Shown here piece after piece: positions 3,892 through 32,272 of a DNA stretch of 40,435 nt. Source of the DNA: an uncultured Chloroflexota bacterium (lineage in GTDB: Bacteria > Chloroflexota > Anaerolineae > Aggregatilineales > Phototrophicaceae); assembly GCA_903877335.1 (NCBI GenBank), contig CAIRDJ010000451.1:1-40435 (forward strand), in the 5' to 3' direction. A program made the position numbers and the translations under genes. The notes beneath the pieces were generated by a model. The model saw nothing but the letters and a program-made list of their open reading frames with translations. It ran no database searches and was not told the DNA's origin. The stretch's first letter is position 1, and the number at the start of each line of letters is the position of its first letter.

Positions 3892-4608
3892 TTATTGCTG
3901 CGACATATGCCAAGCGTTCAACCGTTCACCGCTAATTCCGCGCCCATCCTGTGTTGCGAGTGTCAAGAAGGCGGGGGTCAACCGCATAGGGTCAATCCAC
4001 TGTTGTTTTAGTGCCTCTGAGTAGTTGTACTCAGACATAGGGGTGTGCATATACATGCCGGGGGTGATGGTGTTCACGGCAATCTGCCGCGCCTTACCCT
4101 CAATTGCCATACACTTCATGAAACCTTCTAGGGCGTGCTTGCCTGCCACATATGGGCTTTCTTCGTCAAACCCGACTACCCCTGACCGCGACGAAACAAA
4201 TACAATACTCCCCCCACCAGCTGCGGTCATCGGTTCCCAGACGGCTTGCGTGAGGATAAACGCCGCTTGAATGATGACTGCTAATTCTCGTTGGAAGTCT
4301 GCTAGGTGGATCGCCAATAGCGGGCGGTTGACCAGAATAGCAGCATTGTGTACCAAAACTGACGGAACGCCGCACCACGTCACAGCTTGTTGTGCCACAG
4401 CTTGCGTATGTTCTCCGTCGGATAAGTCCACGGTGAACGCCGTGCTGTTCGCCCCAAGCTCTGCTTGCACAGACTGGAGTAAATCCGCTTTGACATCCAG
4501 CAATGCAACGCGCATTCCTGCTGTCACATATGCCTTGGAGATGGCGTAGCCCAATCCCTGTGCTGCCCCCGTGACGATTGCGGCCTTGCCTGCTAGGCCC
4601 ACCGACAT
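3892..4608 (-). CDS. short-chain dehydrogenase/reductase (SDR)
   Basis: This 238-residue protein has a complete classical SDR signature: TGAAQGLG (residues 13-20) for nucleotide binding, HNAA near 87-90, the catalytic Ser in VSSRSG, and Tyr153-x-x-x-Lys157 (YVAGK). Asp38 at the end of the second beta strand favours NAD(H) over NADP(H). The C-terminus (GERLNAWHMSQQ) departs from the usual VDGG ending. It should oxidise or reduce a small alcohol or carbonyl compound. Its ATG overlaps the stop of the aminotransferase by one base (TAATG), so the two are translationally coupled. It is the last gene of the minus-strand block that starts at the GntR regulator. Confidence 0.88.
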   Translation of the reverse strand: MSVGLAGKAAIVTGAAQGLGYAISKAYVTAGMRVALLDVKADLLQSVQAELGANSTAFTVDLSDGEHTQAVAQQAVTWCGVPSVLVHNAAILVNRPLLAIHLADFQRELAVIIQAAFILTQAVWEPMTAAGGGSIVFVSSRSGVVGFDEESPYVAGKHALEGFMKCMAIEGKARQIAVNTITPGMYMHTPMSEYNYSEALKQQWIDPMRLTPAFLTLATQDGRGISGERLNAWHMSQQ

Positions 4609-5771
4609 TAGGTTAGCCCCCGAATAAGAATTCGAAAGCGCTCTAAACCCAGGTCAAGGTCCGGAGAGCTGCGCGTGAGAGCTGCTCGAATGAAACCTTC
4701 CCCTGCGCCACCGCCGATCGTACCGGGTTGAAACACCAGCTTGGCGTGTTCGCGGGCGTATTCCACAAATGCTGCACTTGATAGCCCCGTTGGACGGATG
4801 TCTACAAATACGTAATATGCACCTTGCGGTTGGCTATACGGCAACGCCAATTCATTTAAAGATTCCATCCACAGATGGCGACGGCGGTCATATTCCTGAA
4901 GTTGCGGTGCAAACCAATCGCGCGGGTTGGTCATGATTGCCAAGCCACCGTACTGAGTGATGGTGTTGGCACAGATCATCATAGCGTGGTGGAACGGTAG
5001 CATCGCTTCCATGATTGATTCTGGTGCCGCAATATAGCCCAAACGCATTCCGGTAATGGCGAAGCTCTTAGAGAAGCTATTGATGGTGATGGTGCGTTCC
5101 CACATGTTGGGTAGGCTTGCCATCGTGATATGCCGATGTCCGTCGTAAGTGTAGTATTCGTAAATCTCGTCAGACACCACTAGTAGGTCATGGCGCTTGG
5201 CTAAGTCGGCAATTTCCAGCAGTTTTTGTTGCGACAGCACGGTTCCGGTGGGGTTGTTGGGGTTTACAACAATGATTGCCCGGGTACGTTCTGTTATAGC
5301 TGCTTCGAGGTCGGCAACATCTATGGTGAAGTTGGTTTCAGGGCGGGTCGTTACAGGTACCAACTTCCCACCGAGAATGGCGGCATCACGACTGTACTCG
5401 TCATAGTGGGGGGAAGGAGTGATCACTTCGTCGCCGGGGTCAAGTAGCGTCATAAGCGTTACCATAAGGGCCTCTTGTGCGCCGGAAGTCACCAGAATTT
5501 CCGATTCTGAGTTATAACGTGCGCCGTTTTCACTGAGCAGTTTGTCGGCAATAGCCGCCCGCAACTCTGGGATGCCGCGCCATGATGTGTAGCGAATCTG
5601 ATTGTTGGACAGCGCCTGTTGCATGGCTTCGTAAACAAACGGTGGCGGAGAGAAATCTGGCGTACCACTGCCGAGGTTAATTAAGCCTGGAATCGGTACA
5701 GAGGTCTGTTTGCCAAGCACCCCATAAAGTGACATAGCGCGTTTTGAGAGGTATTTTTCCATGCTGAACAT
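4608..5771 (-). CDS. class I/II PLP-dependent aminotransferase
   Basis: The 387-residue fold-type I enzyme shows NPNNPTG (residues 170-176), SDEIYEY with Asp201, and the PLP lysine in NSFSKSFAITGMRLG (Lys235). The conserved C-terminal Arg that holds the substrate carboxylate lies in the AGEGFIRAAL region. Length is normal. It would move the amino group between an amino acid and a keto acid in the cytoplasm; substrate is not predictable. Start ATG 5771 follows an AGGA and lies seven bases after the oxidoreductase stop; an in-frame ATG at 5762 is an alternative. It is homologous to the aminotransferase at 18765 in the opposite block, so this locus holds two complete paralogues plus one truncated one. 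Confidence 0.92.
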   Translation of the reverse strand: MFSMEKYLSKRAMSLYGVLGKQTSVPIPGLINLGSGTPDFSPPPFVYEAMQQALSNNQIRYTSWRGIPELRAAIADKLLSENGARYNSESEILVTSGAQEALMVTLMTLLDPGDEVITPSPHYDEYSRDAAILGGKLVPVTTRPETNFTIDVADLEAAITERTRAIIVVNPNNPTGTVLSQQKLLEIADLAKRHDLLVVSDEIYEYYTYDGHRHITMASLPNMWERTITINSFSKSFAITGMRLGYIAAPESIMEAMLPFHHAMMICANTITQYGGLAIMTNPRDWFAPQLQEYDRRRHLWMESLNELALPYSQPQGAYYVFVDIRPTGLSSAAFVEYAREHAKLVFQPGTIGGGAGEGFIRAALTRSSPDLDLGLERFRILIRGLT

Positions 5772-5778
5772 TAGTAGT

Positions 5779-6861
5779 TTATCCTGTAATTTCAGTAAGT
5801 TGAATCCAGCGGCGCTCGGTGGACGACTGGCGCACTGCGTCCATGGCCTGTTGGGTTTTTAATCCATCAAAAAAGGTTGCGCCTGCTTTTAATGCGCGCC
5901 CTTCCCGAATCGCGGCGGTGAATTCCTGCATCAGACCAACAAACGACACATTCCAGATGCCCTTGTTGACCCCTGGTAAAGTGGCGTTGGAGTCGCTGAG
6001 GGTTAACTCTTGAAATGGCTCACCATGGCGTGCAACGCGCAGCACTTCATCATCGTTAGACAGCAAAATTGTACCCTCGCTGCCGAAGAACTGGACGCTG
6101 TTGCCGACATTGTGCCGAGCGGCGCCGCTCAAGAGCATGTTGACCACTGCGCCGGACTGCATTTCCATTTGAAACTGGGTGAAATCATCAGCGGTGGCAG
6201 TGAATGGTTGTCCGTTGTCCTTGCCAATCCGTGCTGGCACCAGTGTGCGTAGATCGCCGTTGACAGCGCCAATATCCCCAAGCCACCACCGTAATAGGTC
6301 AATCTGATGAGAGCCGTTTGCCCCCATCCGCCCGCCGCCCATCGCCTCATCTGACCACCAATCATTAAACGGGCGAGAGGCCAAGTCGCCCCACGAGTTG
6401 GAAATGTTGACCACGGTGACAAAGCGTACTGTGCCGATGGCGCCCTCATCTAGCAAATCCTTGAGCTTGCGGCGCGTGGGGTTAAAGCGCAATTCGTGAC
6501 CAATCATATGGAGCTTGCCCATCACCTCGGCTTGATCGAGCATGGTTTGCGCCTCGGCAGTATTCATGGCGAACGGTTTTTCGCACAAAACATGGGCACC
6601 GCGCTCTAATGCCCGCAGTACCATAGGCATGTGATAAACAGGAGGGGTGGCGATCCCTACTAAATCAAATGTTTGCTCGTCGAGCATTTGCTCCCAATTG
6701 TCATAGGCACGTGGAATCCTAAACGCATCCGCTGCGGCTTGTGCGCTTTCTAGGCGTGCGCTGGAGATGCCGGTTACGGTTGCATCTGAGATATTGGCGA
6801 GCGCTGGCAGGTACGCTGCCTTTGCAAAGCTTGCCCCGATAATCCCAACCTTGAGGGTCAT
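5779..6861 (-). CDS. Gfo/Idh/MocA family oxidoreductase
   Basis: This 360-residue protein begins with a Rossmann NAD(P)-binding strand (LKVGIIGASF) and has the family hallmark EKP (residues 94-96). The C-terminal alpha/beta domain contains GGGRMGANGSHQIDLLRWW, where the His is the expected catalytic-pocket residue. These enzymes oxidise or reduce sugars, inositols, amino sugars or related cyclic alcohols. The start codon overlaps the stop of the TIM-barrel gene (ATGA at 6858-6861), which indicates coupling. A second member of the family lies at 12018 in the same block; the two are distinct paralogues. Confidence 0.9.
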   Translation of the reverse strand: MTLKVGIIGASFAKAAYLPALANISDATVTGISSARLESAQAAADAFRIPRAYDNWEQMLDEQTFDLVGIATPPVYHMPMVLRALERGAHVLCEKPFAMNTAEAQTMLDQAEVMGKLHMIGHELRFNPTRRKLKDLLDEGAIGTVRFVTVVNISNSWGDLASRPFNDWWSDEAMGGGRMGANGSHQIDLLRWWLGDIGAVNGDLRTLVPARIGKDNGQPFTATADDFTQFQMEMQSGAVVNMLLSGAARHNVGNSVQFFGSEGTILLSNDDEVLRVARHGEPFQELTLSDSNATLPGVNKGIWNVSFVGLMQEFTAAIREGRALKAGATFFDGLKTQQAMDAVRQSSTERRWIQLTEITG

Positions 6862-8240
6862 CGTAAACCACGCTCCTTCAAGACTGCCCCGACTGCCGCC
6901 AGAGCGGGCAGGTCGGCTTCGGAGTAGTTGCGGGAAATTAAAATACCTGCTGCACCACCGTCTAACGCTGCTGCAATGCCTTCACGCACTTCTTGTGGGG
7001 TCACGGGTTTGCTAGTGCCGCCATCCCCGACGCCCACTCCAATACCCGAGTAGACCTTTACGCCTGTCTTGTCCACCAGATCGCGCGTCCACTTTTTGAC
7101 GTATTCTGGGCTAAAGCCTTGCATGGGTGCCTCTGTGCGCGTCCCAGTAAACCCATCCAGATTCAACAACCGTGCCAAGCCATCAAACACCCCATCTGGC
7201 GTGGCATCCGCCAGAATGCCCTTTTGCCAACTGGCGGCGAAGCTGGCAAAACGTGCGCCTGCCGGCGTGTGATACAGCACAGGCTTGAGGAAGTCGGCAT
7301 ACTGGGCGAAGTCTGCCATGTCGTACTGGGCGCGCAGGTACGGGTTATAGGTATTGATAACCTGCCAAATGCCGTAGCCCATCTCATAAGTCGGGTCAAA
7401 GAAGTGGACTAGCCCGGCGATCTCGTGGTAAAATGACTGATGCGAATCTAGCCACATCTTTTCCCACAGTAGCACCTCTGGGTGGTGAAGGATGTGCCGC
7501 AGGAACATCACGAACATGCCTTCGTCGGGGAGTTGCCCGGTTTTGCGATACGATTGCAACAACTGATCAATGTTGCGGTAGCCCTGCAGTGCCTTTTCGA
7601 CATCAATGTGGCGCGCGCGCGCTTCTGCCTTGTAGTAATCGTCAAAGCCAGTGCTACTGTCGCCACGGAGAATATCCATTAGCGGGCTGTGACGCTCGAC
7701 ACCCCACAGCAACCCATCGAGCGCATGGTTCTTGAACCAGTCCTCAATCACGCTGAACCACCACGTTTTATAGTGAGGATTTAACAGGGAGGGGCGGGTG
7801 GCAACACGCCCAAAGTGATCGCGGTCGAGGAAATGCGGGAAGCCCGGTTGCCACACAGGACGAATGCCGGAACTGGACGTTTCACAGTAGTAGGGGTAAA
7901 CCTTTATGCCGCGCGCCTTCGCGGCGGGCACCACTGCCCCTAGCGTATCGAACCCGTTGTAAAGCGGATCGGGGGCTTTGAACTGTTTATGAAATGTAGC
8001 AGTGTAATAGTCTGGGTTAGGTTCGTAGAATGCCCCACCCTGAAGGTGATCGGGGCTTGCCTCGCCGTGATCTGGGAAGCCATACAGCGCACGCCCTGCG
8101 TTGCCTCGGCTCCACGATAAGGCAGAGATCATCAGGGCGTTTACCCCCGCCTGTTCTTGAAGCAGATCAAGAACAGGTTCTACCCCCTCGTCAATGAAGC
8201 TGATTGCGCCGATTTGAATCCCTACAAATGTCTCTGTCAT
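6858..8240 (-). CDS. TIM-barrel glycoside hydrolase-like protein of unknown function
   Basis: This 460-residue protein has no signal peptide. It shows a barrel-like alternation with barrel-strand signatures such as GIKVYPYYCETSS, DGLLWGVERHSP and GAAGILISRNYSE, the last near the C-terminus. It has many aromatic residues, as in carbohydrate-binding pockets. It resembles the putative glycoside-hydrolase-like TIM barrels often found beside Gfo/Idh/MocA enzymes, but I cannot place it in a numbered family or name the catalytic acids with confidence. The Glu in GVERHSP and the Glu in YCETSS are candidates. The start is well supported by GAGGG five bases upstream. Context (ABC importer upstream, oxidoreductase coupled downstream) suggests it processes an imported compound in the cytoplasm. 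Confidence 0.5.
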   Translation of the reverse strand: MTETFVGIQIGAISFIDEGVEPVLDLLQEQAGVNALMISALSWSRGNAGRALYGFPDHGEASPDHLQGGAFYEPNPDYYTATFHKQFKAPDPLYNGFDTLGAVVPAAKARGIKVYPYYCETSSSGIRPVWQPGFPHFLDRDHFGRVATRPSLLNPHYKTWWFSVIEDWFKNHALDGLLWGVERHSPLMDILRGDSSTGFDDYYKAEARARHIDVEKALQGYRNIDQLLQSYRKTGQLPDEGMFVMFLRHILHHPEVLLWEKMWLDSHQSFYHEIAGLVHFFDPTYEMGYGIWQVINTYNPYLRAQYDMADFAQYADFLKPVLYHTPAGARFASFAASWQKGILADATPDGVFDGLARLLNLDGFTGTRTEAPMQGFSPEYVKKWTRDLVDKTGVKVYSGIGVGVGDGGTSKPVTPQEVREGIAAALDGGAAGILISRNYSEADLPALAAVGAVLKERGLR

Positions 8241-8294
8241 GAATACCCTCTGTTTGTTCCGATTAAAAAATAACAGGTCAATGGAGCGTACTGG

Positions 8295-9248
8295 CTAGCT
8301 ACCCTCACCGCGCAGTCGTGGATCTAAGATGTCGCGCAGCCAGTCGCCTAAAATGTTGAGCGCTAATACCACGACCATAATAGCCCCCCCCGGATACACA
8401 GCCAACCACCAGTAGCCGCCAAGCAACTGGTCGCGGCTTTCGGCTAACATCCCGCCCCAAGTTGGTACATCAGGTGGGACGCCTAGCCCTAAAAATGATA
8501 GCGATGCCTCTGAGAGGATGACGCCTGCGACATTGAAGGTGGTGATAATAATCAGCGGAGTGAGGATATTACGCAACACATGAACCAGCATGATGCTGAC
8601 GTTGTTCATCCCGATGCTTCTGGCGGCCTCTACATATTCTTTTTCGCGCTGGCTGATGGTTTCTCCGCGTGCGATGCGTGCATATGTCACCCATTGCCCG
8701 ATACTCAATACCAGCACGACGTTTAGCACGCCCTGACCTAACACAACCAGCACCATAATCGCCAGCAGGATAAACGGAAACGCTAGTTGAATATCCGCCA
8801 GTCGCATAATCACATCGTCTACCCAACCACCGACATAACCCGAGATCAAACCCAATAATGTGCCGATCCCGCCGCCAATCACTACGGATGCCACACCAAC
8901 CCATAACGAAATCCGTGCGCCATACAGCAAGCGAGACAATACATCCCGCCCTAGTCCGTCTGTTCCCAAGGGGAAGGACACCACACCAGTGGCATCGGCA
9001 GTCGTGGGTGGCGTTAGCCGTAGGGCGAGGCTTTGGCGGTTGGGGTCGCGCGGTGCCAATTGTGCACCAAACATAGCAATAAAGACGAAGCCAATGAGCA
9101 AAATTGCAGCTACCAACGGCCAACCTGCCCGTAGCATTTGCTTGAACCAGTGGGGGAGTTGTAACGGATGGCGTTGCAAAGTTGCCACGCTTGCAGGGGG
9201 CACCAGCATTGGGGCATTTGGCGTTGATGGTTTGGGTTGCTCTACCAT
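8295..9248 (-). CDS. ABC transporter permease, DppC/OppC type
   Basis: This 317-residue membrane protein has the layout of DppC/OppC/NikC permeases: a first transmembrane helix around residues 40-60 (GWPLVAAILLIGFVFIAMFG), an exported loop containing the family signature FPLGTDGLGRDVLSRLLYGARISL, then five more helices. The coupling-helix EAA-type loop is EYVEAARSIGMNN. The C-terminal signature is LNILGDWLRDILDPRLRG. It forms a heterodimer with the DppB-type permease just upstream. No ATPase genes are present in this window, so DppD/DppF-type subunits must come from elsewhere. Start ATG 9248 with GAAAG upstream. Confidence 0.93.
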   Translation of the reverse strand: MVEQPKPSTPNAPMLVPPASVATLQRHPLQLPHWFKQMLRAGWPLVAAILLIGFVFIAMFGAQLAPRDPNRQSLALRLTPPTTADATGVVSFPLGTDGLGRDVLSRLLYGARISLWVGVASVVIGGGIGTLLGLISGYVGGWVDDVIMRLADIQLAFPFILLAIMVLVVLGQGVLNVVLVLSIGQWVTYARIARGETISQREKEYVEAARSIGMNNVSIMLVHVLRNILTPLIIITTFNVAGVILSEASLSFLGLGVPPDVPTWGGMLAESRDQLLGGYWWLAVYPGGAIMVVVLALNILGDWLRDILDPRLRGEGS

Positions 9249-9263
9249 AATCTTTCAACCGAT

Positions 9264-10241
9264 CTAGTCATAGCGAATTCTGGGGTCAAGCCGAAGGTAT
9301 AATAGGTCAACGATCAGGTTCAACACTACAAACGTTAGCGAGAAGATAAACACTGAAGTCTGTACTACTGGAATATCACGCTGGTTGATGGAATTAAACA
9401 CCAACCGCCCAACCCCCGGCCAAGAAAACACGGTTTCGACGACAACGACACCGCCCAGCAAAAATCCGAACTGCAAACCCAGAATGGTTACGACTGGAAT
9501 CAGCGCGTTACGGAGCGCATGGAACAGCACAACAGCGCGCTCGCTGAGTCCTTTTGCCCGCGCAGTGCGGACGTAATCCGCAGACAACACCTCTAACATC
9601 GCGGAGCGGGTCATACGGGCATTGCGCGCCAAAGAGAAAAGTGACACTGTAATTCCGGGCATCAACATGAAGCGCAGTGCCTCTGGAAAGTTGGTTAAGA
9701 ATGTGCCGACATCCCCTGCCAGTAGCGGGTTTAACAGCGGCACATGCCCAGATATTGGGATGCCAGGAACATTAAGCCCCACATACATGATGAGCATAAT
9801 CCCCAACCAAAAATTCGGGACGGATTGCCCCAGTAGCGCGAACATCATGATGCCGCCGTCCCAGAGCGTACCGCGTTGGGTTGCCGCGAGGATGCCAATC
9901 GGAATTCCTAGAAGAGTTGAAAATACCATCGCGAAAATAGTCAGTTCCAGCGTGGCCGGCAAACGTTCTAGCACCACGTCCAACGCGGGGCGGCGTGCTT
10001 TGAGTGAATTGCCGAAATCGCCTTGTGCCATATTCCATACGAAGATGGCGTACTGTTCATACAACGGCTTGTCGAAACCCAACCGTGCGCGGACTTCTGC
10101 GACTTCTTCTTCGCTGGAACGCTCGCTGACGTATAAATAGGTCGGGTCACCGGCCAAGTGCAGCGTCAGGAAAGTTAGTAATGTTACGCCCCAAATCACA
10201 ATTAGAGACTGCAATAGTCGTCGAACAACATATTTAATCAT
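9264..10241 (-). CDS. ABC transporter permease, DppB/OppB type
   Basis: The 325-residue protein starts MIKYVVRRLLQSLIVIWGV, the standard N-terminus of DppB/OppB permeases. It has six predicted transmembrane helices, and its coupling loop is DYVRTARAKGLSERAV. It ends in the usual YLRLDPRIRYD. The ATG at 10241 is chosen over an upstream extension because the family starts here and because the extension would run into an 18-bp hairpin (10287-10327). There is no strong Shine-Dalgarno. It pairs with the permease at 8295 in a peptide/nickel/opine-type importer. Confidence 0.93.
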   Translation of the reverse strand: MIKYVVRRLLQSLIVIWGVTLLTFLTLHLAGDPTYLYVSERSSEEEVAEVRARLGFDKPLYEQYAIFVWNMAQGDFGNSLKARRPALDVVLERLPATLELTIFAMVFSTLLGIPIGILAATQRGTLWDGGIMMFALLGQSVPNFWLGIMLIMYVGLNVPGIPISGHVPLLNPLLAGDVGTFLTNFPEALRFMLMPGITVSLFSLARNARMTRSAMLEVLSADYVRTARAKGLSERAVVLFHALRNALIPVVTILGLQFGFLLGGVVVVETVFSWPGVGRLVFNSINQRDIPVVQTSVFIFSLTFVVLNLIVDLLYLRLDPRIRYD

Positions 10242-10286
10242 TTTGAGGGCAACTTTTATCCAATATAAGATCAGCAAGACATAACG

Positions 10287-10327
10287 GTTGGGTGTGGCGC
10301 AGTGAAGGCCACTGCGCCACACCCAAC
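10287..10327 (-). promoter_or_regulatory. 18-bp perfect hairpin between binding-protein and permease genes
   Basis: The arm GTTGGGTGTGGCGCAGTG (10287-10304) is exactly complementary to 10310-10327, with a five-base loop. It starts 13 bases after the stop of the solute-binding protein gene and is not followed by a T-run, so it is more likely an mRNA-stabilising or partial-attenuation structure than a full terminator. Such stem-loops commonly let binding-protein mRNA outlast permease mRNA. Confidence 0.8.
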
Positions 10328-10340
10328 GCTAGAAATGTTG

Positions 10341-11924
10341 TTACTCAGCCAGGGTCACACCGTAGACGAAGATCTTCTCGTCACGGCGCGCTTGCCATTC
10401 CACACGGTTGCTCACCCCGTAGAAGTCCGGTTGGAAGTACAAGAACAACCACGGCGGGTCGCTGTGCATCACATCCAACATGGCAAACACAATTTCCTGT
10501 GTTTCTTCTTCGGTCAGTGCAGCGTTGGCGAGTTGCTCGCGCAGGGTGAACCACTCTGGGTTGCTCCATTCGGTGTAGTTGGTCGCACCGTCTGGGGTAG
10601 AGATGTCTGCCATATCATATTGGGCGTTCCACGTGCCGCCACCTGTACCGACGAAGTACAATGGACCTACCGCATGTTCGCGCAGAGCAGGCACAAATTC
10701 CGATGACCAGTCGAGCAGTTCAACGTTGGTTTCTACACCAACATCCGTCAAGTATTGACCAATTGCCTGTACAACGTTGACATCATTGAGGTAACGCCCA
10801 CGCCCTGCTTGTAGGGTGATGCTGAAACGCACGCCGTCGTCACCACGCGGGTAGCCAGCGGCATCCAGCAGACTTTCAGCGGTTGCTGGGTCATAGGGAT
10901 ACGGTGCTAGGTCGGGGTTATTGTTGGGGGGGTTCACCATACTGGATGCTCGCTCGCAATCCATCCCTAACAAAGTGGTGCAGATGGTTGGTACGTCTAC
11001 GGCGTATTGCAATGCTACACGTACATCGGTGTTCATGATGGCATCGCCACCTTCATCACCCGCGAACAAGCCCGTCATGTTATACCCAACATACATACGG
11101 CGTGTACCTGCCACACCCTGTACCGCTGCCACGCCAGAATTCGCGACTGCACCCTGTTGGTCAGGCACTAGGTTGGCGATGATGTCTACATTACCAGCAA
11201 TCAACTCTGCGGCGCGTGTCGAATTTTCTGGGATGACGCGCCACACCAACGTTTGGAAGCCCTGAGGACGCAACGTGAAGCCCTCTACGGCGGTCAGCGT
11301 GGTGTGACTGTCTGGCACCCATTCGACAAACGAATATGGGCCAGAGCCAATCGGTGCGGCGGCAGCTTGTTCAAGGGTCATGGCCTCGTAGCTGTCTTTG
11401 CAGTGAATGAACACTTCAGAGATCAAGCCGATATTGATCGACTGGAAGCGACTGACGTTGATTGCAACTTCTAAATCACTAAGCGCCTCCGCATTCTGGA
11501 ATCCGATGGAGTCAAATACAAACCCGGCGGTGTTGCCCGTGAATGCATTAGCATCGTCTGCCGCACGGTTGAACGTATAGGCGGCATCCTCTGCTGTTAG
11601 TGCTTCACCGTCGTGGCAAGTTAGCCCTTCGTTGAGGGTAAAGATGATGCTCATGCCATCGTTTTCCAGACGGTACTCTTTTGCCAAGTACGGGTCAATT
11701 GAGCCTGTTTCGCTGATGGAGTACAGTGTACCGAAGATGTGTGAGAAAACGTTAGCCTCCGCCCGTGAGTTAACCTCTGAAGGTTCCCAACTGTCGATAT
11801 CAACTGTTTGAGCGATGACCAAGGTAGACTCATCTGGTCCGGGTTGTGCGGACACTACGAGTGGCAGGATAGCCAAAACCACGACAATTAACGCAATTGC
11901 GCTTATGCGAAACTTGTACTGCAT
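10341..11924 (-). CDS. ABC transporter substrate-binding protein, family 5 (DppA/OppA type)
   Basis: This 527-residue exported protein has a signal peptide (basic MQYKFR, hydrophobic core IALIVVVLAILPLVV, cleavage after VSA). The following AQTVDIDSWEP and DGMSIIFTLNEGLTCHDGEALTAEDAAYTFNRA segments are the standard family-5 (SBP_bac_5) pattern. There is no lipobox, so it is free or otherwise held at the membrane. These proteins bind peptides, opines, nickel chelates or sugars. The ATG at 11924 is chosen because GGAGAAG lies six bases before it; a TTG two codons upstream is too close to that site. It is the first transport gene of the minus-strand block, followed by the hairpin at 10287 and the two permeases. 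Confidence 0.93.
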   Translation of the reverse strand: MQYKFRISAIALIVVVLAILPLVVSAQPGPDESTLVIAQTVDIDSWEPSEVNSRAEANVFSHIFGTLYSISETGSIDPYLAKEYRLENDGMSIIFTLNEGLTCHDGEALTAEDAAYTFNRAADDANAFTGNTAGFVFDSIGFQNAEALSDLEVAINVSRFQSINIGLISEVFIHCKDSYEAMTLEQAAAAPIGSGPYSFVEWVPDSHTTLTAVEGFTLRPQGFQTLVWRVIPENSTRAAELIAGNVDIIANLVPDQQGAVANSGVAAVQGVAGTRRMYVGYNMTGLFAGDEGGDAIMNTDVRVALQYAVDVPTICTTLLGMDCERASSMVNPPNNNPDLAPYPYDPATAESLLDAAGYPRGDDGVRFSITLQAGRGRYLNDVNVVQAIGQYLTDVGVETNVELLDWSSEFVPALREHAVGPLYFVGTGGGTWNAQYDMADISTPDGATNYTEWSNPEWFTLREQLANAALTEEETQEIVFAMLDVMHSDPPWLFLYFQPDFYGVSNRVEWQARRDEKIFVYGVTLAE

Positions 11925-11971
11925 AAACAACTTCTCCTATAACCTGAAATCCAGTAATTATTTTCGATCAC

Positions 11972-12004
11972 AAAGCTACAGAGGTGTTGCCACCTGATCG
12001 CTTT
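11972..12004 (-). promoter_or_regulatory. hairpin with GCAA tetraloop upstream of the binding-protein gene
   Basis: On the minus strand, AAAGC...AGGTG-GCAA-CACCT...GCTTT forms a two-part stem-loop with a GNRA tetraloop. It lies in the 93-base gap between the Gfo/Idh/MocA gene and the binding-protein gene. It may be a processing or attenuation structure separating regulator-proximal genes from transport genes. No clear promoter is seen in the gap. Confidence 0.35.
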
Positions 12005-12017
12005 GATGATGCCTCAG

Positions 12018-13984: not shown

Positions 13985-14670
13985 CACGGTTTATCCTCTG
14001 TGTTGTATGCCCAACCCCCGGCAATTAGTTCGCCAGTGGTAGCAATGTGCTGCTGGATCGCCCGTAACGCTTGGTCACAGTCATTGCCCTGCAGTGCCGC
14101 CAAAATGGGTAGGTGGTTTTCCACCACACGCACGATGTTATCGTTGCGCAGGTTATGCAGTGACATCACTTGTTGCACGCGCATATTCACGGCATACCAT
14201 GTTGAAGAAAGCAACCGATGCCCACTCAATTCGATGATCTTGTCATGGAATTCACGGTCAATGCGGTTGACATCTCGCCAGCTTCCTTCGTGTGCTACCG
14301 CCATCATTCTGTCAAAAATCGCCTGCAATGCTTCGGCAGCGGTCGTTGGATTATCAGCGAAGATACGCTCGATAGCGAAACTTTCTAGCACACTTCGCAA
14401 GCTAGTCAATTCTTCGATGTCTACCTTACTCAGACTGGTCACCGTCGTGCCATGATACGGTACAACCGTGACCAATCCCTCTGTGTTCAGGATTTGGATT
14501 GCTTCGCGCAGTGGGGCGCGACTTACGCCTAACTGTGCTGCAAGGTCGGTTTCCACCAGCGCTTGCCCCGGCTTAAGTTCGCCACTCAGGATTGCACTAC
14601 GTAGCGCGTCCAGAATGCGTTCCCGCAGGGATTTGGTGCTGATTTGGTTGAACTGAAAGGATTCACTCAT
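13984..14670 (-). CDS. GntR family regulator, FCD (FadR) subfamily
   Basis: The 228-residue protein has an N-terminal winged helix-turn-helix (about residues 10-75) with LRERILDALRSAILSGELKP and the GntR hallmark LGVSRAPLREAI. An all-helical FCD ligand-binding domain follows. The metal/ligand residues expected in FCD domains are present: DREFH, the HLPILAAL His and the QQHI His. FCD regulators usually bind an acidic metabolite and release DNA. Start ATG 14670 gives the family-typical N-terminus but lacks a Shine-Dalgarno. The gene is the first of the minus-strand block, and the repeated TCGACAAT sites just upstream are its likely own operator, so it probably controls both blocks. Confidence 0.92.
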   Translation of the reverse strand: MSESFQFNQISTKSLRERILDALRSAILSGELKPGQALVETDLAAQLGVSRAPLREAIQILNTEGLVTVVPYHGTTVTSLSKVDIEELTSLRSVLESFAIERIFADNPTTAAEALQAIFDRMMAVAHEGSWRDVNRIDREFHDKIIELSGHRLLSSTWYAVNMRVQQVMSLHNLRNDNIVRVVENHLPILAALQGNDCDQALRAIQQHIATTGELIAGGWAYNTEDKP

Positions 14671-25199: not shown

Positions 25200-26344
25200 C
25201 GATGATGCCACTAGGTGAGGCTTTTTATCGGGGGCGGGTGCAGGCAATTCGTGAGCAGGTTTTGGCATCAGGCGCAAAAGGCATCTTGCTATTGAACATG
25301 CCTGATGTCGTCTACGCTTCGGGCTTTGTACACTCGCCGTCAGAGCGCCCCATTGGGCTGTTTGTCCCCGCAAGCGGTGAGCCAGTCTTATTGATCCCCC
25401 TTTTGGAGCAGGAAAACGCTGCTGAAACGTGGATCAAAGATATTCGCGTGTATTTTGAATTCCCCGGAACAGAGACAGTCTTAGACTGGATGGTAGCGCA
25501 GTGTGACGTAAATCCGTTGCTAGTGGAATCGAATGGTTCAGCGTGGTGGCGACCAGAAGTCCCGTTTGCCACCCCAACCAACATCCTTAACCGCCTGCGG
25601 TGGGTCAAACAACCCGAAGAATTGGCGTGCATCCGCTTGGCAGCACATTACGCAGACTTGTGCCTGTCCCACGTTCGCGATCAAGCCCCACCGATCATCC
25701 GTCGCGGCGGTAGCGAACTGAACATTCTGGAAGCTAGTATCAGCGCCACCCTTCGGCAGATGCGCGATGAACTGGGTAGCAGGTACGCCCGCCGCCTGCT
25801 AAATGTGGTCGGAACGGTTCATAGTGGTGCACGCGCTGCGTTGCCACACGGCGAAACCAGCACGCGCATCCCACAGCATGGCGATACGCTTATTGCCGGC
25901 ATTGGGGCATGCGTGGGCGGCTACTACGCAGAGAGCGGCGCAACGTTTATATTGGGGCAGGCAAATGCAGAGCAACGGCACATCTTAGCGGCTTGTGTAG
26001 ACTGCGACAGTGCTGCTGCTGCCGCGTTACAGGTCGGTGCGACCTGTGCCAGCGTTAACGATGCAGCTTTAGCTGTGCTTCACGCCGCCGGACTTACCCA
26101 GGCAATCCGCCATCGGATTGGGCATGGGATGGGTTTGCAGGGGCATGAAGCCCCTTGGTTGGCGCCCGGCGACCTAACACAAGTGCAGCCGGGCATGGTC
26201 TTTAGTAGTGAGCCGGGGGTATACCGTCCACTCGTAGATGGTTACCGTACTATCAACACCTATATCGTCACTGCCGACGGCGTAGAGATACCCAGTCGGT
26301 TTTTGTCAGCATATCCACCCGAACAACGCATTTTATCTATCTAA
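25196..26344 (+). CDS. M24 (pita-bread fold) protein with creatinase-like loss of metal ligands
   Basis: The 382-residue protein has an N-terminal creatinase domain (about 1-130) and a C-terminal M24 domain. Of the five metal ligands of aminopeptidase P/prolidase, His310 (IGHGMG) and Glu339 (FSSEPG) remain. The first Asp is Ala234 (GDTLIAGIGA), the second is Glu246 (GGYYAESGAT) and the last Glu is Ile353 (YRTINTYIV). His317 is also kept. Creatinase and ectoine hydrolase (EutD/DoeA) share this fold and work without the metal pair, so a non-metal amidase/amidinase role is plausible. Family assignment is firm, reaction is inferred. The start overlaps the M14 stop (ATGA). Confidence 0.85.
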   Translation: MTMMPLGEAFYRGRVQAIREQVLASGAKGILLLNMPDVVYASGFVHSPSERPIGLFVPASGEPVLLIPLLEQENAAETWIKDIRVYFEFPGTETVLDWMVAQCDVNPLLVESNGSAWWRPEVPFATPTNILNRLRWVKQPEELACIRLAAHYADLCLSHVRDQAPPIIRRGGSELNILEASISATLRQMRDELGSRYARRLLNVVGTVHSGARAALPHGETSTRIPQHGDTLIAGIGACVGGYYAESGATFILGQANAEQRHILAACVDCDSAAAAALQVGATCASVNDAALAVLHAAGLTQAIRHRIGHGMGLQGHEAPWLAPGDLTQVQPGMVFSSEPGVYRPLVDGYRTINTYIVTADGVEIPSRFLSAYPPEQRILSI

Positions 26345-26374
26345 CCCTTTATCACGCTCTGGAGGAACAATAGC

Positions 26375-27622
26375 ATGGCAGAGCCACCCGCATGGCATTA
26401 CCAGAAGATCATCAAACCCATGGTCGAGCATGTCACAGTCAACGCCGTACTGACCAACGCTCGTCTGCTGACCTGTGTTGGTGATGAGGAGATTGAGCAG
26501 GGCTACTTATGGATCGCTAACGGTAAAATTACTGCCATTGGCAGTATGGCGGATTACCAAGCCCCTGAAGGGGCACGCGAAATAGACTGTAGCGGCAAAA
26601 CATTAATTCCCGGCATGATGAACTCGCACGCTCATCTGGCGTGGGACGGCGTCCACGACTTGGCACGCCAAAGCATGGATGATGCCCCAGAGATCAGTGC
26701 CTATAAATCTGCGGGTAACATGCTCAAGAGCTTACAAGCAGGCATTACGTTAGTGCGAGACTTAGGCATGAACCGCAGCAACTTTTTCGCTAAACAGGCA
26801 GTGGCGCAGGGCATCTTCCCTGGGCCACGCCTGCTGATCTGTGGCGAGGCAATTATCCAGACAGGTGGGCATACCTACTGGTGCTGCCGTGAGGCAAGTG
26901 GCGCGGATGAAATGCGTCGTGCAGTACGCGAACAGGTGCGCGGCGGGGCAGACCTCATCAAGATCATGGCGTCCCACGATCGCGTTGAGTTCACCGATGC
27001 TGAACTAGAAGCTGTCATCGACGAAACGCACCGCACCGGGTTACCCATCACCGCCCACGCGACCTTCAATGAGGTGATTAAACGGGTAGTGGAATTTGGC
27101 GTCGACTGTGTAGAACACGGCGGTAGCATGACCGATGATACCATCCAACTGTTACTAGACAGGCAGGTGCCTATTGTGACTACCTTTGCCCCGTTGGTGC
27201 AGCAGGCAAACCCAGATGTCGCCCGTAAGTTCAATATTCCAGAGTGGAAAATTGAGGAGCGGCAGAAAGCCCTTCAGTCTGGAACGCGCTTTGCAGGGCT
27301 ACAGAAGGCGGCGCAGGCGGGCGTGACTATTGCCTTCGGCACGGATGCCGGTAGTCCTGCGGTTGGGCATGAGGTTGTGGCGCCGGAACTGGCGTTTATG
27401 GTGCAGTTAGGCATTAAGCGTGACAACTACGATGCCTTGCGCTGCGCGACCATTGTCCCTGCCCGAATTCACAAGCTAGATCATTTACTCGGCACATTAG
27501 AGGTCGGCAAAGCCGCCGATGTTGTGGTACTGTCGCAGAATCCACTAGAGAACTTGTACGCACTCGAAACCGTGCAAATGACCTTTGTAGGCGGAAAGAT
27601 GCTTTATCAACTTGCCAATTGA
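26375..27622 (+). CDS. amidohydrolase family protein (imidazolonepropionase/Xaa-Pro dipeptidase-like)
   Basis: This 415-residue TIM-barrel protein carries NSHAHL (His85, His87), GADLIKIMAS with a probable carboxylated Lys196, TAHAT (His228), VEHGG (His248) and FGTDAG (Asp324). The pattern is that of the group containing imidazolonepropionase-like enzymes and amidohydrolase-fold prolidases. Such enzymes hydrolyse cyclic amides or dipeptides such as Xaa-Pro. A strong GGAGGAA site lies before the ATG, the first clear gap in the operon (30 bases). It is the last hydrolase before the transporter. Confidence 0.9.
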   Translation: MAEPPAWHYQKIIKPMVEHVTVNAVLTNARLLTCVGDEEIEQGYLWIANGKITAIGSMADYQAPEGAREIDCSGKTLIPGMMNSHAHLAWDGVHDLARQSMDDAPEISAYKSAGNMLKSLQAGITLVRDLGMNRSNFFAKQAVAQGIFPGPRLLICGEAIIQTGGHTYWCCREASGADEMRRAVREQVRGGADLIKIMASHDRVEFTDAELEAVIDETHRTGLPITAHATFNEVIKRVVEFGVDCVEHGGSMTDDTIQLLLDRQVPIVTTFAPLVQQANPDVARKFNIPEWKIEERQKALQSGTRFAGLQKAAQAGVTIAFGTDAGSPAVGHEVVAPELAFMVQLGIKRDNYDALRCATIVPARIHKLDHLLGTLEVGKAADVVVLSQNPLENLYALETVQMTFVGGKMLYQLAN

Positions 27623-27632
27623 CGTCCAATCG

Positions 27633-27654
27633 CCCCCCGCATTGGTGCGGGGGG
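27633..27654 (+). promoter_or_regulatory. 9-bp GC-rich hairpin between amidohydrolase and MFS genes
   Basis: CCCCCCGCA (27633-27641) pairs perfectly with TGCGGGGGG (27646-27654) around a TTGG loop. It lies 11 bases after the amidohydrolase stop and 11 before the MFS ATG. No T-run follows directly, so it is not a canonical terminator. It could attenuate or process the message. Its position also argues against the upstream TTG start for the MFS gene. Confidence 0.6.
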
Positions 27655-27665
27655 TAAACCGTGAC

Positions 27666-28892
27666 ATGCTAATCTTTTTTCTGCACAGTGCCACCCTGCA
27701 TATCGGTCTCATTGGCATGGCAGATGTGTTGCTAAATTTTTACTACGTTAGCCTTGGTTACGATGCTAGTGTGATCGGCATGTTGCAGGCGTTGCCGCGT
27801 TTGAGCGGGTTCTTGACAGGTTTACCGGTAGGCTTAGTCGCTAACCACATTGGTAGGCGTCGCATTCTGATCTTATCTAATTTTGGTTTGGTCGCCAGTC
27901 TTCTGTTGTTGGTATGCTTCCCTGTGCTATGGATGTTGGCACTATGTCGTTTTATGTTAGGTTTTTTCTACGGTAGCAACCAAATCGTTACCTCACCGTA
28001 CTTAGTGACACTCACCCCCAAGGCAGAACATACCCACCAGTTTGCCTATCACAATTTGGTGAGCATGTTGGCGACTGCCGTCGGTAGCGTACTGGGCGGG
28101 TACCTGCCGTTGTGGTTTAGCCAATGGCTTGGGTTGGCAGGCACAGCATTCGCACCTCCGGAACAATCGCTCACGGCTTACACGCTTTCGTTGATGCTGT
28201 CGGCAGCAATTATGCTGTTGAGCACGTTGCCGTTGTTCTATCTGCCAATCGCCAAGCATACCTTTCCTGTTTCAGACGGCGAGCAGGTAAGGTTAACTAT
28301 CCCATGGGGGCGCTTGCTACTCTATGGTATCCCGCTATTTTTCTTTGGGGTCACGGGCGGGATGACATTCCCGTTCTACAATCTGTTCTTCCGTGAGCGC
28401 TTTCTCCTGCCCGATGCTGGCGTAGGTAACATTCTGGCGCTGGGTTGGCTTGGTATGGCGTTGGTGCCGCTCATCAACCCGTTCTTGGAACGACGACTAG
28501 GGCGCGTATGGGGCTTGGCAACCATGATGGGCATTGCTGGATTGGGTTTTTGGGGCTTAGGCAGTATTGAGTGGTTGCCCGCAGCAGTCCCCTGCTATGT
28601 GTTAGGCATTGCCGCCCGCAATGCGATGCAACCTTTAATCCAGCCACTAATGATGGATTGCCTGCCCGACGAACTGCACAATATAAATAGTAGCGTCGGC
28701 ATTGTCTTGTGGAATGTTGGTTGGTTTGCATCTACCGCCAGTTTTGGTGGGTTGTTGCCCGTCGCGGGCTATGGTGGCATGATGTTGATTGTGGCTGTAG
28801 GGGTCGTCATTACTGCCGCAAGCATCGTGCTGGTTTTTGCTCCATTATCTGGAAAACAGTTATCCGTTTCTTTGGGAAAGGCAAAATTATGA
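27666..28892 (+). CDS. MFS transporter
   Basis: The 408-residue protein has about twelve hydrophobic segments and the MFS loop 2-3 motif GLVANHIGRRRI (GxxADxxGRRR type). A longer cytoplasmic loop sits near the middle (about residues 190-215), where the two halves join. An in-frame TTG at 27612 overlapping the previous gene is possible, but the ATG at 27666 gives a normal N-terminus and lies after the hairpin at 27633 and a G-rich stretch that can act as ribosome site. It probably imports the substrate or exports a by-product. The stop overlaps the next ATG (ATGA). Confidence 0.9.
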   Translation: MLIFFLHSATLHIGLIGMADVLLNFYYVSLGYDASVIGMLQALPRLSGFLTGLPVGLVANHIGRRRILILSNFGLVASLLLLVCFPVLWMLALCRFMLGFFYGSNQIVTSPYLVTLTPKAEHTHQFAYHNLVSMLATAVGSVLGGYLPLWFSQWLGLAGTAFAPPEQSLTAYTLSLMLSAAIMLLSTLPLFYLPIAKHTFPVSDGEQVRLTIPWGRLLLYGIPLFFFGVTGGMTFPFYNLFFRERFLLPDAGVGNILALGWLGMALVPLINPFLERRLGRVWGLATMMGIAGLGFWGLGSIEWLPAAVPCYVLGIAARNAMQPLIQPLMMDCLPDELHNINSSVGIVLWNVGWFASTASFGGLLPVAGYGGMMLIVAVGVVITAASIVLVFAPLSGKQLSVSLGKAKL

Positions 28893-29800
28893 GCGCAATT
28901 ACTGGCATTTTCAACATTCTGGCAACCCCCTTTACCCCCGATGGTGAAGTTGACAGCAACAGCTTGCGCCATCTGGTAGATTTCCAGTTGGCGCTGGGTG
29001 CCTATGGGCTGACGATTTTGGGTGTGCTGGGCGAAGCAGCAAAATTGAGTGTTTATGAACGCACCCACGTCATGCAGACGGTGGTAGAGCAGGTCAACGG
29101 GCGTGTGCCAATAGTCGTAGGTACCTCCCACCCAGACACTGCCACCTGCGTGCGCCTGAGTAAGTCGGCACTGGAAGGCGGTGCAACAGGCGTTATGGTA
29201 GCATTGCCGCCACTGAACGAGCCAAGCGAAGCACAGATTTTTGCTTACTACGAAGAACTCGCTGCGCATGTAAAAGGAACTATCGTAGTACAAGACTACC
29301 CTAAGGTGAACAACGTCACCCTGTCGGCGGCGGTAATCGCCCGTATTGCCAACGAAATTCCCACAGCGCGCCACCTTAAACTTGAAGACCCGCCGTTGAT
29401 GGAGAAGGTTCGTGCCATCCGCACCCAAACTGAACATATTGCGATTTTTGGCGGGTTGGGCGGGATGTTCCTGCTAGAGGAACTGCACGCGGGGACGGGC
29501 GGCACGATGACGGGTTTCGCTTTTACAGAGGTGCTGGTGGCGGTGTATCAAGCCTACAGTAGCGGCGATATGGTACGCGCTACTGAGATTTTCGACCAAT
29601 ACTTGCCGCTCATCCGTTACGAAAATCAACCAGAGATCAACCTCACCATCCGCAAGGAACTATTGTATCGCCGTGGGGCAATGGCTCACGCCGGTTTACG
29701 TGTGCCATTCCGCCCCATTGATCGGGGTACGCACGACGAAATAACATGGGTTTTACAACGGGTGGGTATTACTGACCCCACCCAGATCATTACTTTTTAA
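28889..29800 (+). CDS. DapA-family (dihydrodipicolinate synthase/N-acetylneuraminate lyase) aldolase
   Basis: This 303-residue TIM barrel opens with GIFNILATPFTPDGEVD, typical of the family, and retains the Schiff-base Lys164 (HLKLEDPP) and the catalytic Tyr137 (VQDYPKV). The GTTGE motif of true dihydrodipicolinate synthase is replaced by GVLGE (residues 45-49), so the Thr pair of its proton relay is lost. It is therefore a lyase or dehydratase of another specificity, probably cleaving or dehydrating a 2-oxo acid. The start at 28889 overlaps the MFS stop; the longer upstream extension is rejected because it runs through the MFS gene. Confidence 0.88.
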   Translation: MSAITGIFNILATPFTPDGEVDSNSLRHLVDFQLALGAYGLTILGVLGEAAKLSVYERTHVMQTVVEQVNGRVPIVVGTSHPDTATCVRLSKSALEGGATGVMVALPPLNEPSEAQIFAYYEELAAHVKGTIVVQDYPKVNNVTLSAAVIARIANEIPTARHLKLEDPPLMEKVRAIRTQTEHIAIFGGLGGMFLLEELHAGTGGTMTGFAFTEVLVAVYQAYSSGDMVRATEIFDQYLPLIRYENQPEINLTIRKELLYRRGAMAHAGLRVPFRPIDRGTHDEITWVLQRVGITDPTQIITF

Positions 29801-29824
29801 TCAACTTAAAAGGGAGCTACCCAC

Positions 29825-30607
29825 ATGGATTTAGGTCTGCATAATAAAGTGGTCATGGTTGCCGCTTCTAGTAAGGGGTTGGGGTTTGGGGTGGCACAAG
29901 CAAGCGCACAAGAAGGTGCGCGGGTGTCATTGTGCAGTCGAACAGAGGCAGATGTACTTGTTGCTGCCGAGCGCATTCGCACAGAAACCCAGTCTGAGAC
30001 GCTGGCGACAGCCTGCGACGTACTCGACGCGGCGCAAATCGAAAACTGGGTGCAGCGCACAGTCTCCGCCTGGGGGCAGTTGGATGCGTTGCTGGTCAAT
30101 GCAGGCGGTCCTGTGTCTGCCAGTTTCAAGGAATTAAGCGACGAGCAGTGGCATGCAGCTTTTGAACTCACCTTGATGAGCACGGTGCGTATGATCCGTG
30201 CAGTGTTGCCGCACATGTCGTCTGGTGGTGCCATCCTCACCGTGACCTCCTCGTCAATTATCGAACCCATCCCGCGGTTGGGCTTGTCTACGGTGATGCG
30301 TGCGGGCGTTGCGGGCTTGGTTAAAACGCTTGCAAATGAACTGGCACCCGACGGCATTCGCGTCAATAACCTGATACCAGGGCGTATCGACACAGAGCGA
30401 GTCGCACAGTTAGACGCTGGGGTGGCAAAGCGGCTCAACATCACACCCCAAGAGGCACGCGCACAATCGCTGCAGAGCATCCCGCTGAAACGGCTTGGTA
30501 GCATTGAGGAGTTCGGGCGTGCAGCTGCTTTTTTGCTGTCACCCGCTGCGAGTTTCATTACGGGCGCAACTTTGCGCGTAGACGGCGGACAGATCAAGGC
30601 GATCTAA
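29825..30607 (+). CDS. SDR family protein lacking the canonical YxxxK
   Basis: The 260-residue protein has an SDR fold with an altered cofactor loop (AASSKGLG, residues 13-20), VNAGGP (91-96), TVTSSS with the Ser position, and the end VDGGQ. At the usual Tyr-x-x-x-Lys position it reads GLSTVMRAGV (153-162), so both catalytic residues are missing. A known SDR subgroup (3-oxoacyl-ACP-reductase-like with LSxxxR) shows the same replacement, so this is probably not decay. Arg39 after the second strand (LCSRTEAD) favours NADP(H). An AAAGGGAGC ribosome site precedes the ATG. Confidence 0.85.
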   Translation: MDLGLHNKVVMVAASSKGLGFGVAQASAQEGARVSLCSRTEADVLVAAERIRTETQSETLATACDVLDAAQIENWVQRTVSAWGQLDALLVNAGGPVSASFKELSDEQWHAAFELTLMSTVRMIRAVLPHMSSGGAILTVTSSSIIEPIPRLGLSTVMRAGVAGLVKTLANELAPDGIRVNNLIPGRIDTERVAQLDAGVAKRLNITPQEARAQSLQSIPLKRLGSIEEFGRAAAFLLSPAASFITGATLRVDGGQIKAI

Positions 30608-30694
30608 CGATGTTTGCCCAATAACCCGCCCATCAGTAACTAAAAAGTTTATCGACAACTCAAACCTACTTTCCATAATTCGAGGAGGGACTAA

Positions 30695-32230
30695 ATGTCT
30701 GGATATGATGACCTTGCACAGCACATTGGTGAACTGAATGATGTGCTTAACGCGATTTCAATTCTAAAGTGGGATCAGCGCACACAGATGCCTTCCGGTG
30801 GTGCCCGCACACGCGGCAACCAACTGGCAACGCTCAGTCGTATCGCGCAAGAGATGTTCATCGGTACTACCACCGCCCGCCTGCTAGAAACCGCAGAGGC
30901 AGAGGTGGCGGGGGAACCCTCAGAGAGTTACCGCGTGCGCTCGGTTGCACAAACACGGCAGTATTACGAGATTGTGCGCCGAATTCCCATGCAGGTGATT
31001 GCAGACATGGCAGCGCTATCACCAGAATCTCAGTTGGTGTGGGAACGCGCGAAAAAAACTGACGATTTTGCGCTATTTGCTCCCTACCTACAACGCATGT
31101 TAGATTTTAACAAGGCGCTGGCGGATGCCGTCGGATATAGCGACCATCCCTATGATGGACTGGTCTTTGAATACGAGCCGAGCATGACCGCCAGTAAGCT
31201 CAAAGTCTTATTCGCTGACCTGCGTGCTGGCTTGATCCCGCTTTTGGGGCGCATCGTTGCCAATGACACCCCACTCCCAGTGGATTTGTGGCGACACACT
31301 TATGACATTCCGAAACAAAAGGCATTTGCGCTAGAGGTTGCACAGCAGTTTGGCTATGACCTGCAACGCGGGCGGCTAGATATTGCGCCACACCCGTTTG
31401 AGGTATCATTCACGCGGGAAGATGTTCGTATCACCACGCGCTACAGCGATCATTACCTGCCGATGGCGCTGTTTGGTAGCCTGCACGAAACTGGCCATGC
31501 ACTGTACGAGCAAGGGGTAGACCCTGCGCTCACCCGCTCTGCGCTGACGACGGATTTTCTGGGGCAATATGCTGTGGGGGGGACCAGTTACGGGGCACAC
31601 GAGTCACAGTCACGGTTGTGGGAAAATCAAATCGGGCGTAGTCGTGCGTTTTGGGTGCAGCACTTCCCTCGCCTGCACGAATATTTTCCTGAGCAACTGG
31701 CAGAGGCAGACGACGAGTTATTCTACAGGGCTGTCAACCGCGTGCAACCCAGCTTGATCCGAGTTGAGGCGGACGAGGTGACCTATAACCTGCACATTAT
31801 GTTGCGGGTGGAAATCGAGATGGGGCTACTGGACGGCACATTTCAGGTATCGGAACTGCCAGAGGTTTGGCGCAGCAAAATGCAGGAATATGTTGGGGTT
31901 GCACCGACCACTGACAGTAATGGTGTGTTACAGGATGTCCATTGGTCCGGCGGGGGCTTTGGGTCATTCCCCGGTTACACTGTTGGCAATGTGATGTCGG
32001 CGCAATTGCTGGCAGCGGCACACCGCGATGTGCCTGACCTAGATAACGCACTGGCAGGAGCAGACTATGCGCCGTTGTTAAGCTGGTTAACGGAAAACGT
32101 CTATCGGCATGGACGGGCGTACAGTGCCAGCGAACTGCTACAACGTACCACTGGGCAAGACCTCACCGTAGGGCCTTATATGACATACCTGACAGAGAAA
32201 TTTGCTGACCTGTACGCTTTCACGATATAG
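30695..32230 (+). CDS. M32 family carboxypeptidase (thermostable carboxypeptidase 1 type)
   Basis: This 511-residue, mostly helical metallocarboxypeptidase has the HExxH zinc site in SLHETGHALYEQG (His264, Glu265, His268) and the third ligand Glu in AHESQSRLWEN (about 303). Other family motifs are DIAPHPFEVSF, TTRYSDH and ESQSRLWENQIGRS. It removes C-terminal amino acids from peptides in the cytoplasm. GAGGAGGG precedes the ATG well. It is the last gene of the operon; a strong hairpin terminator starts 15 bases after the stop. Confidence 0.95.
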   Translation: MSGYDDLAQHIGELNDVLNAISILKWDQRTQMPSGGARTRGNQLATLSRIAQEMFIGTTTARLLETAEAEVAGEPSESYRVRSVAQTRQYYEIVRRIPMQVIADMAALSPESQLVWERAKKTDDFALFAPYLQRMLDFNKALADAVGYSDHPYDGLVFEYEPSMTASKLKVLFADLRAGLIPLLGRIVANDTPLPVDLWRHTYDIPKQKAFALEVAQQFGYDLQRGRLDIAPHPFEVSFTREDVRITTRYSDHYLPMALFGSLHETGHALYEQGVDPALTRSALTTDFLGQYAVGGTSYGAHESQSRLWENQIGRSRAFWVQHFPRLHEYFPEQLAEADDELFYRAVNRVQPSLIRVEADEVTYNLHIMLRVEIEMGLLDGTFQVSELPEVWRSKMQEYVGVAPTTDSNGVLQDVHWSGGGFGSFPGYTVGNVMSAQLLAAAHRDVPDLDNALAGADYAPLLSWLTENVYRHGRAYSASELLQRTTGQDLTVGPYMTYLTEKFADLYAFTI

Positions 32231-32244
32231 GTGGCAAGTGACGG

Positions 32245-32272
32245 TATACCCCTGTCGTATGATAGGGGTATA
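32245..32272 (+). terminator. intrinsic terminator of the 16-gene operon
   Basis: TATACCCCTGTC and GATAGGGGTATA form a 12-bp stem (one G-U pair) with a GTAT loop, followed by TTT. It starts 15 bases after the M32 stop. No other comparably placed terminator-like structure with a T-rich tail was seen between 14828 and here, which supports one long transcript. Confidence 0.75.

Follow-up and report, generated by a model that had tools for sequence, protein, structure and literature searches.

The 40,435-nucleotide stretch analysed here (the window), one entire contig of an Anaerolineae metagenome-assembled genome, carries a block of 26 genes that spans 28 kb. Ten of the genes occupy the minus strand (3892-14670) and sixteen the plus strand (14828-32230), and the two groups diverge at a GntR/FCD regulator, which has a GntR helix-turn-helix and an FCD domain. 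We find this locus to be real, conserved, regulated and apparently undescribed. What can be read directly from the sequence is the linkage of the genes, a conserved control region and a reciprocal loss of active-site residues in two neighbouring genes, x214 and AT2. Taken together, these features are probably best explained by a conserved catabolic regulon that encodes an AT2:x214 aminotransferase heterodimer and an active/degenerate pair of DUF4438 proteins, D4438a and D4438b.

The aminotransferase pair lies on the plus strand, with x214 (18124-18768; 214 aa) immediately upstream of AT2 (18765-19952; start refined to the ATG at 18765). AT2 aligns to class I aminotransferases over its full length, scores 248 bits against a Pfam PF00155 (class I/II aminotransferase) cut-off of 19.7, and keeps the equivalents of Lys258 (in NGFSKTYAMTG), Asn194, Asp222, Tyr225, Arg266 and Arg386. 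Its full-length alignment and these residues liken it to the class I-gamma aspartate/aromatic aminotransferases (Thermus 1bjw, Pyrococcus 1gd9), from which it differs in that the Tyr70 equivalent is absent and a Lys-less partner gene lies directly upstream. In the Tyr70 column AT2 has V, P, A, L, I or R, as confirmed by PDB alignment (Pyrococcus THYGPNIG and Thermus TKYAPPAG versus TAVTPIAG in AT2), and x214 always has Tyr (HYTDRPGI; Y50 in the window, within TKYADRAGI). x214 is a C-terminally truncated pseudo-aminotransferase that aligns in two stretches (PDB 2z61, 43-118 and 212-268); the C-terminal domain is missing, as is, in every member, the lysine that binds pyridoxal 5'-phosphate (PLP). 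An earlier reading made from the window alone (the sequence-only reading) had listed aminotransferases among the genes of the two blocks; in the right-hand block this is correct for AT2, and the 214-aa gene is instead a Lys-less partner subunit.

This complementarity recurs in the relatives. Counting one pair per locus, Lys is present in 0/17 and Tyr70 in 17/17 of the readable Lys-less partners, most of which are about 214-290 aa long, while the active partners have Lys in 17/17 and Tyr70 in 0/17. Unpaired aminotransferases (AT1 orthologues, six same-genome class I/II paralogues and the two AT2 homologues L124 and L167) have Tyr in 13/13; Tyr loss thus accompanies a Lys-less neighbour in 17/17 pairs versus 0/13 unpaired enzymes, counts that are not phylogenetically independent, the sequences being related. 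A second, strongly diverged pair under the same operator was found in G015 and G444 in the company of an AstE, an Ldh_2 and an S9 peptidase, with a partner that reads HYVDVPGI and has no Lys and an active member with D or H in place of Tyr. A paralogous operon, also under this operator (L163, 2453-8512; L164, 94-8029), contains GntR, Lys-less and Tyr-less aminotransferases, SDR, Ldh_2, AstE and an S9 prolyl oligopeptidase; L164 has an extra VOC copy that is 80% identical to the VOC protein of the window, and in L163 a TIR-TPR protein (8577-9899) adjoins the operon.

In aspartate aminotransferase this Tyr extends to the phosphate of the cofactor in the opposite subunit. Tyr68 and Arg257 of the Plasmodium enzyme (PfAspAT), which come from different subunits, both bind the PLP phosphate, and mutating the two together lowers activity ~170-fold (PMC6612543). 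AT2 has no Tyr70 to receive in trans from an identical subunit, as homodimers of this type do. From the reciprocal loss of Lys and Tyr70 we infer a heterodimer with one active site: in its simplest reading, AT2:x214 is predicted to be obligate, with AT2 supplying Lys and the cofactor site and x214 the phosphate-binding Tyr70, and the second site would be dead. We found such a complementary split-subunit arrangement described solely for a distant relative, serine palmitoyltransferase, in which SPT1 lacks the Lys, SPT2 has it, and a single active site, placed at the interface, is believed to serve both subunits (PMC6148460). Like SPT1/SPT2 (LCB1/LCB2), x214/AT2 would combine two homologous fold-type I PLP subunits, one of them without the PLP lysine. 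In contrast to serine palmitoyltransferase, a member of the eukaryotic alpha-oxoamine synthase family, x214/AT2 belong to the bacterial class I aminotransferase family (the best models and PDB matches are class I aminotransferases rather than alpha-oxoamine synthases), the Lys-less partner is shortened and the active partner lacks Tyr70. The literature searched held no paper with 'heterodimeric aminotransferase' or 'heterodimeric transaminase', and a broader literature search for Lys-less aminotransferase partners returned none matching by title or abstract. We consider it an even call that these pairs form a new enzyme class, that is, bacterial class I aminotransferases turned into obligate heterodimers by complementary degeneration, in at least two diverged lineages within one regulon that also holds a half-degenerate DUF4438 pair, and serving a pathway for a natural product not yet recognised.

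Could the Lys-less partner have another role? x214 may be a regulatory or chaperone-like pseudoenzyme beside a Tyr-less AT2 that works as a homodimer in a different PLP reaction, such as that of a lyase or cyclodehydratase. The best NCBIfam model for AT2, the GntC cyclodehydratase, points this way even though it stays under its cut-off (330 versus 415 bits), and so does the missing C-terminal domain of x214. However, the only aminotransferases to lose the Tyr are those with a Lys-less neighbour, and this is so in two diverged lineages; that neighbour retains precisely the residue that would act in trans, and AT2 homologues without a partner keep their Tyr. We consider this account unlikely. 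The truncation of x214 and its faster evolution relative to AT2 would also suit a decaying pseudogene, with the Tyr loss in AT2 a coincidence, but the gene is open in ~15 genomes from two phyla, its dN/dS is below 1 (~0.2-0.5), its HYTDRPGI and SQW segments are strictly conserved, and it adjoins AT2 wherever the contig permits checking; in G442 the two are still together on another contig. We regard decay as scarcely credible.

The two DUF4438 genes open the right-hand block (D4438a, 14828-15694, start refined to the ATG at 14828; D4438b, 15691-16572; both plus strand). Their products are 41% identical to each other, score above the DUF4438/TM1086 Pfam cut-offs, and resemble TM1086 (PDB 3dcl, 3n99) in fold and at ~40% identity. 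Unlike the Thermotoga-type DUF4438 proteins of other Chloroflexota, which are single copies, they are paired, with one copy degenerate. D4438a keeps nearly all residues that are invariant in stand-alone DUF4438 proteins, while D4438b carries at least seven replacements relative to these (H66->T, E68->H, H112->S, D202->S, D204->H, R238->H and H252->Q; letters are group majorities in D4438b numbering). At the EH motif, the Glu is gone from D4438a and so, in most cases, is the His, and D4438b keeps the motif in part. From these residues we infer an intact/degenerate pair. Because a 2-hydroxyacid or related oxidoreductase (Ldh_2, 2-Hacid_dh or Gfo-type) is usually close in the paired contexts inspected, there is a weak indication that the pair acts on a keto or hydroxy acid. 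In another Chloroflexota family (L058-L064), the pair stands beside a 2-hydroxyacid dehydrogenase and several Gfo/Idh genes, with no aminotransferase pair in the stretches read; the DUF4438 neighbourhood in Acidaminobacter consists of unrelated genes. A fold search with DUF4438 gave no relative besides TM1086, a plasmid search gave no matches, and the literature searched held no paper containing 'DUF4438'; papers naming 'TM1086' were mostly unrelated by title, plus one on crystallisation methods.

Homologous loci were collected via DUF4438 and the 460-aa orphan gene. In G015 the whole locus is kept gene for gene, AstE excepted, and other Anaerolineae contigs have the same gene order as far as they extend; the order of the block recurs across Anaerolineae genera. 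Among 41 relatives, the DUF4438 pair is present in 6 genomes and the orphan in those six and G039 (6/6 versus 1/35, Fisher p = 1.6e-6, uncorrected for phylogeny, the species not being independent). At the G039 junction (L082/L083), an epimerase without residues 1-54 and an amidohydrolase without residues 1-219 lie 13 bp apart, pointing to an internal deletion, with the loss of GntR to M24, or to a contig misjoin. In view of these two truncations we rejected the idea that G039, with outer genes but not inner ones, reveals a composite island. Trueperaceae (Deinococcota) carry the locus in rearranged order: G465 has the divergent arms DapA-HYD-orphan-AT-AH2-M24-LDH2-D4438b-a and GntR-EPIM-GFO2-SBP5-OppBC-GFO1-SDR, and other genomes of the family have Opp-VOC-x214-AT2-D4438a-b-LDH2-M14. 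Other Chloroflexota have reduced versions. The block behaves as linked sub-modules, a core of VOC, x214-AT2, D4438a-b and LDH2 together with transport genes and hydrolases, and these sub-modules may change their order, drop AstE or lie on separate contigs. The sequence-only reading had taken the block for a single pathway locus and named rare adjacency in relatives as grounds for giving this up. The relatives gave no such grounds, though the locus is modular: a conserved catabolic locus stands, one fixed pathway does not. Its further claim, that no described pathway has this gene set, agrees with our search of curated libraries and literature, which found none.

The control region is conserved as well. 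Because the starts of GntR (13984-14670, minus strand; ATG at 14670) and D4438a were refined, the divergent intergenic region (14671-14827) is 157 bp long, not 19. It contains two sigma-70 promoters that match the consensus at 12/12 positions, TTGACA-16-TATAAT on the plus strand (14675-14702) and TTGACA-17-TATAAT on the minus strand (14776-14748); they face each other and are the sole 12/12 sites across 3500-18000. The stretch that separates their -10 boxes carries operator-like repeats, ATGTCGACAAT and CAATCGACAAT, around TGTCGACAAT. This TTGTCGACAA-type operator, flanked by face-to-face promoters, is also present in Trueperaceae. Automated detection recovered the layout in most relatives, G465 and the second G442 locus among them, with GntR orthologues adjoining the same operator. 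The exact palindrome ATTGTCGACAAT has 17 sites in the 15 genomes searched, and the reversed control has 0. Most inspected sites adjoin homologues of GntR, AT1, SBP5, VOC, M24 or the amidohydrolase AH2, and two fall outside the locus, one close to a citrate synthase gene (G442), the other close to a glycosyltransferase gene (G439); the former, at L162 8018 (G442:C18), lies ~140 bp upstream of the gene. Because layout and palindrome are conserved at homologous genes, control of both blocks by one repressor, the GntR switch already proposed in the sequence-only reading, is well supported as a prediction.

Less can be said about the substrate. The sole hydrolase that reaches a curated NCBIfam cut-off is the M20 protein (20936-22093), with a broad ArgE/DapE subfamily model, and since the others stay under theirs, no specific substrate can be named. 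The M24 protein (25196-26344) shares its fold, the retained His and one Glu with prolidase/aminopeptidase P (e.g. 5cdl) but differs from them at the two Asp ligands and the final Glu ligand: the positions D, D, H, E, E read G, E, H, E, I in every locus member aligned. A dinuclear metal peptidase is therefore unlikely, and of the M24 hydrolase named in the sequence-only reading the fold holds while the peptidase ligands are gone. Creatinase and ectoine hydrolase work without metal. Both are related to M24 enzymes and catalyse reactions other than those of a peptidase (PMC3187862). The 460-aa orphan (6858-8240, minus strand) is weakly GHL10/GHL6-like, with sub-threshold Pfam matches; its predicted structure is a poor model (pLDDT 42), a PDB profile search gave nothing useful, and a plasmid search gave two distant homologues. 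Another distant homologue lies in Granulicella among hydroxyproline-type and aminopeptidase P genes. A 4-hydroxyproline cluster was rejected here, as the 26 genes include no proline racemase/epimerase or FAD oxidase family, only a DapA-type one. Judged from the enzymes, a cyclic or N-acylated amino-acid compound is plausible, and a glycosylated peptide is compatible with the glycoside-hydrolase-like orphan and the Gfo/epimerase genes.

Two accounts of the whole block compete with a catabolic regulon. Its combination of a creatinase-like M24 protein without metal ligands, a DoeB-like AstE/AspA deacylase (19955-20932), a hydantoinase/allantoinase-type cyclic amidohydrolase with metal-binding motifs read from its sequence (22099-23499), a transaminase and dehydrogenases, ABC uptake and GntR recalls ectoine or hydantoin degradation, in particular the logic of Halomonas doeABCD (PMC3187862). 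But all scores fall below the curated cut-offs (DoeA, TIGR02993, 46.5 versus 613 bits; DoeB, TIGR02994, 105.8 versus 402.7; D-hydantoinase, 310 versus 393; allantoinase, 317 versus 358), many extra hydrolases and another regulator and importer set it apart from doeABCD, and AstE is dispensable; neither pathway holds as an assignment, and we judge a cluster of this kind very improbable. The second account, in which unrelated genes of amino-acid and sugar catabolism share a loose genomic island, draws on the separation of sub-modules (the locus is split in G016, x214-AT2 is on another contig in G442 and Trueperaceae are rearranged) and on the Gfo/Idh, epimerase and orphan genes, which suggest sugar chemistry. 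It is countered by the same operator marking several of the separated pieces and by a gene order that is kept between genera and, in part, between phyla, and appears rather doubtful. Our preferred explanation, the catabolic regulon with its two pairs, has points against it as well: gene content varies, AstE is missing in several relatives and some loci lack the left or right parts; the operator repeat is imperfect in the window itself, whose own genome (G000) has 0 exact copies; and the Tyr/Lys counts share ancestry, as noted above.

How might such a regulon work? A GntR/FCD repressor bound to one operator between the face-to-face promoters would silence both blocks. On arrival of the ligand, the Opp-type importer, energised by ATPases encoded elsewhere, would take up a peptide- or amide-linked compound, whose amide, acyl or ring bonds may be opened by the M14, M32, amidohydrolase, M20, AstE and hydantoinase-type enzymes and the metal-free M24 protein. 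This would free an unusual amino acid for transamination by AT2 with x214. The keto acid could then be processed by Ldh_2, VOC, the SDR/Gfo-type dehydrogenases and the DapA-type lyase, and the D4438 pair would perform some step on the same intermediate.

All 26 genes, in two opposed blocks as first described, were found. Those not yet placed are, on the plus strand, the core genes for VOC, a glyoxalase-fold protein (16592-17056), and the Ldh_2-family 2-hydroxyacid dehydrogenase (17060-18127), an M14 carboxypeptidase (23499-25199), the Xaa-Pro dipeptidase-like amidohydrolase (26375-27622), an MFS transporter (27612-28892), a DapA/NanA-type aldolase or lyase (28889-29800, start refined), an SDR dehydrogenase (29825-30607) and an M32 carboxypeptidase (30695-32230). 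On the minus strand are an SDR dehydrogenase (3892-4608), AT1, a class I aminotransferase of the ordinary kind that has Tyr as well as Lys (4608-5771), two Gfo/Idh/MocA oxidoreductases (5779-6861; 12018-13067, start refined), the OppC and OppB permeases (8295-10322), the family 5 solute-binding protein SBP5 (10341-11930) and an NAD epimerase/dehydratase-like protein (13064-13987). As had been observed, no ABC ATPase lies inside the block; ten OppD/F-type (oligo_HPY) matches of the same genome are located on contigs other than this one. In the right block, start refinement raises the number of start-stop overlaps from the six first counted to seven (4, 4, 4, 1, 4, 11 and 4 bases). The hairpin at its end (~32243-32272, plus strand; z = -3.75) is present, but calling its tail T-rich was generous, as the tail is only TTTGG, and it is not the sole strong one: the SBP5-OppB spacer (10287-10327, minus strand) holds a hairpin of -40 kcal/mol (z = -9.0), which probably makes expression of the permeases lower than that of the binding protein. 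Separate from the locus, an MBL-rhodanese protein overlaps a SulP-STAS sulfate-type transporter (33118-36352).

These data define a regulon, and an operator open to test, in what was an anonymous block of genes from uncultured Anaerolineae and Trueperaceae. To probe the logic of the predicted split aminotransferase, two small proteins suffice; if true, it would be a second, simpler case of a homodimeric PLP enzyme turned into an obligate heterodimer, a question so far linked, to our knowledge, with serine palmitoyltransferase and the mutations of it found in human disease. The DUF4438 family, which has crystal structures and no assigned function, gains a strong pathway context.

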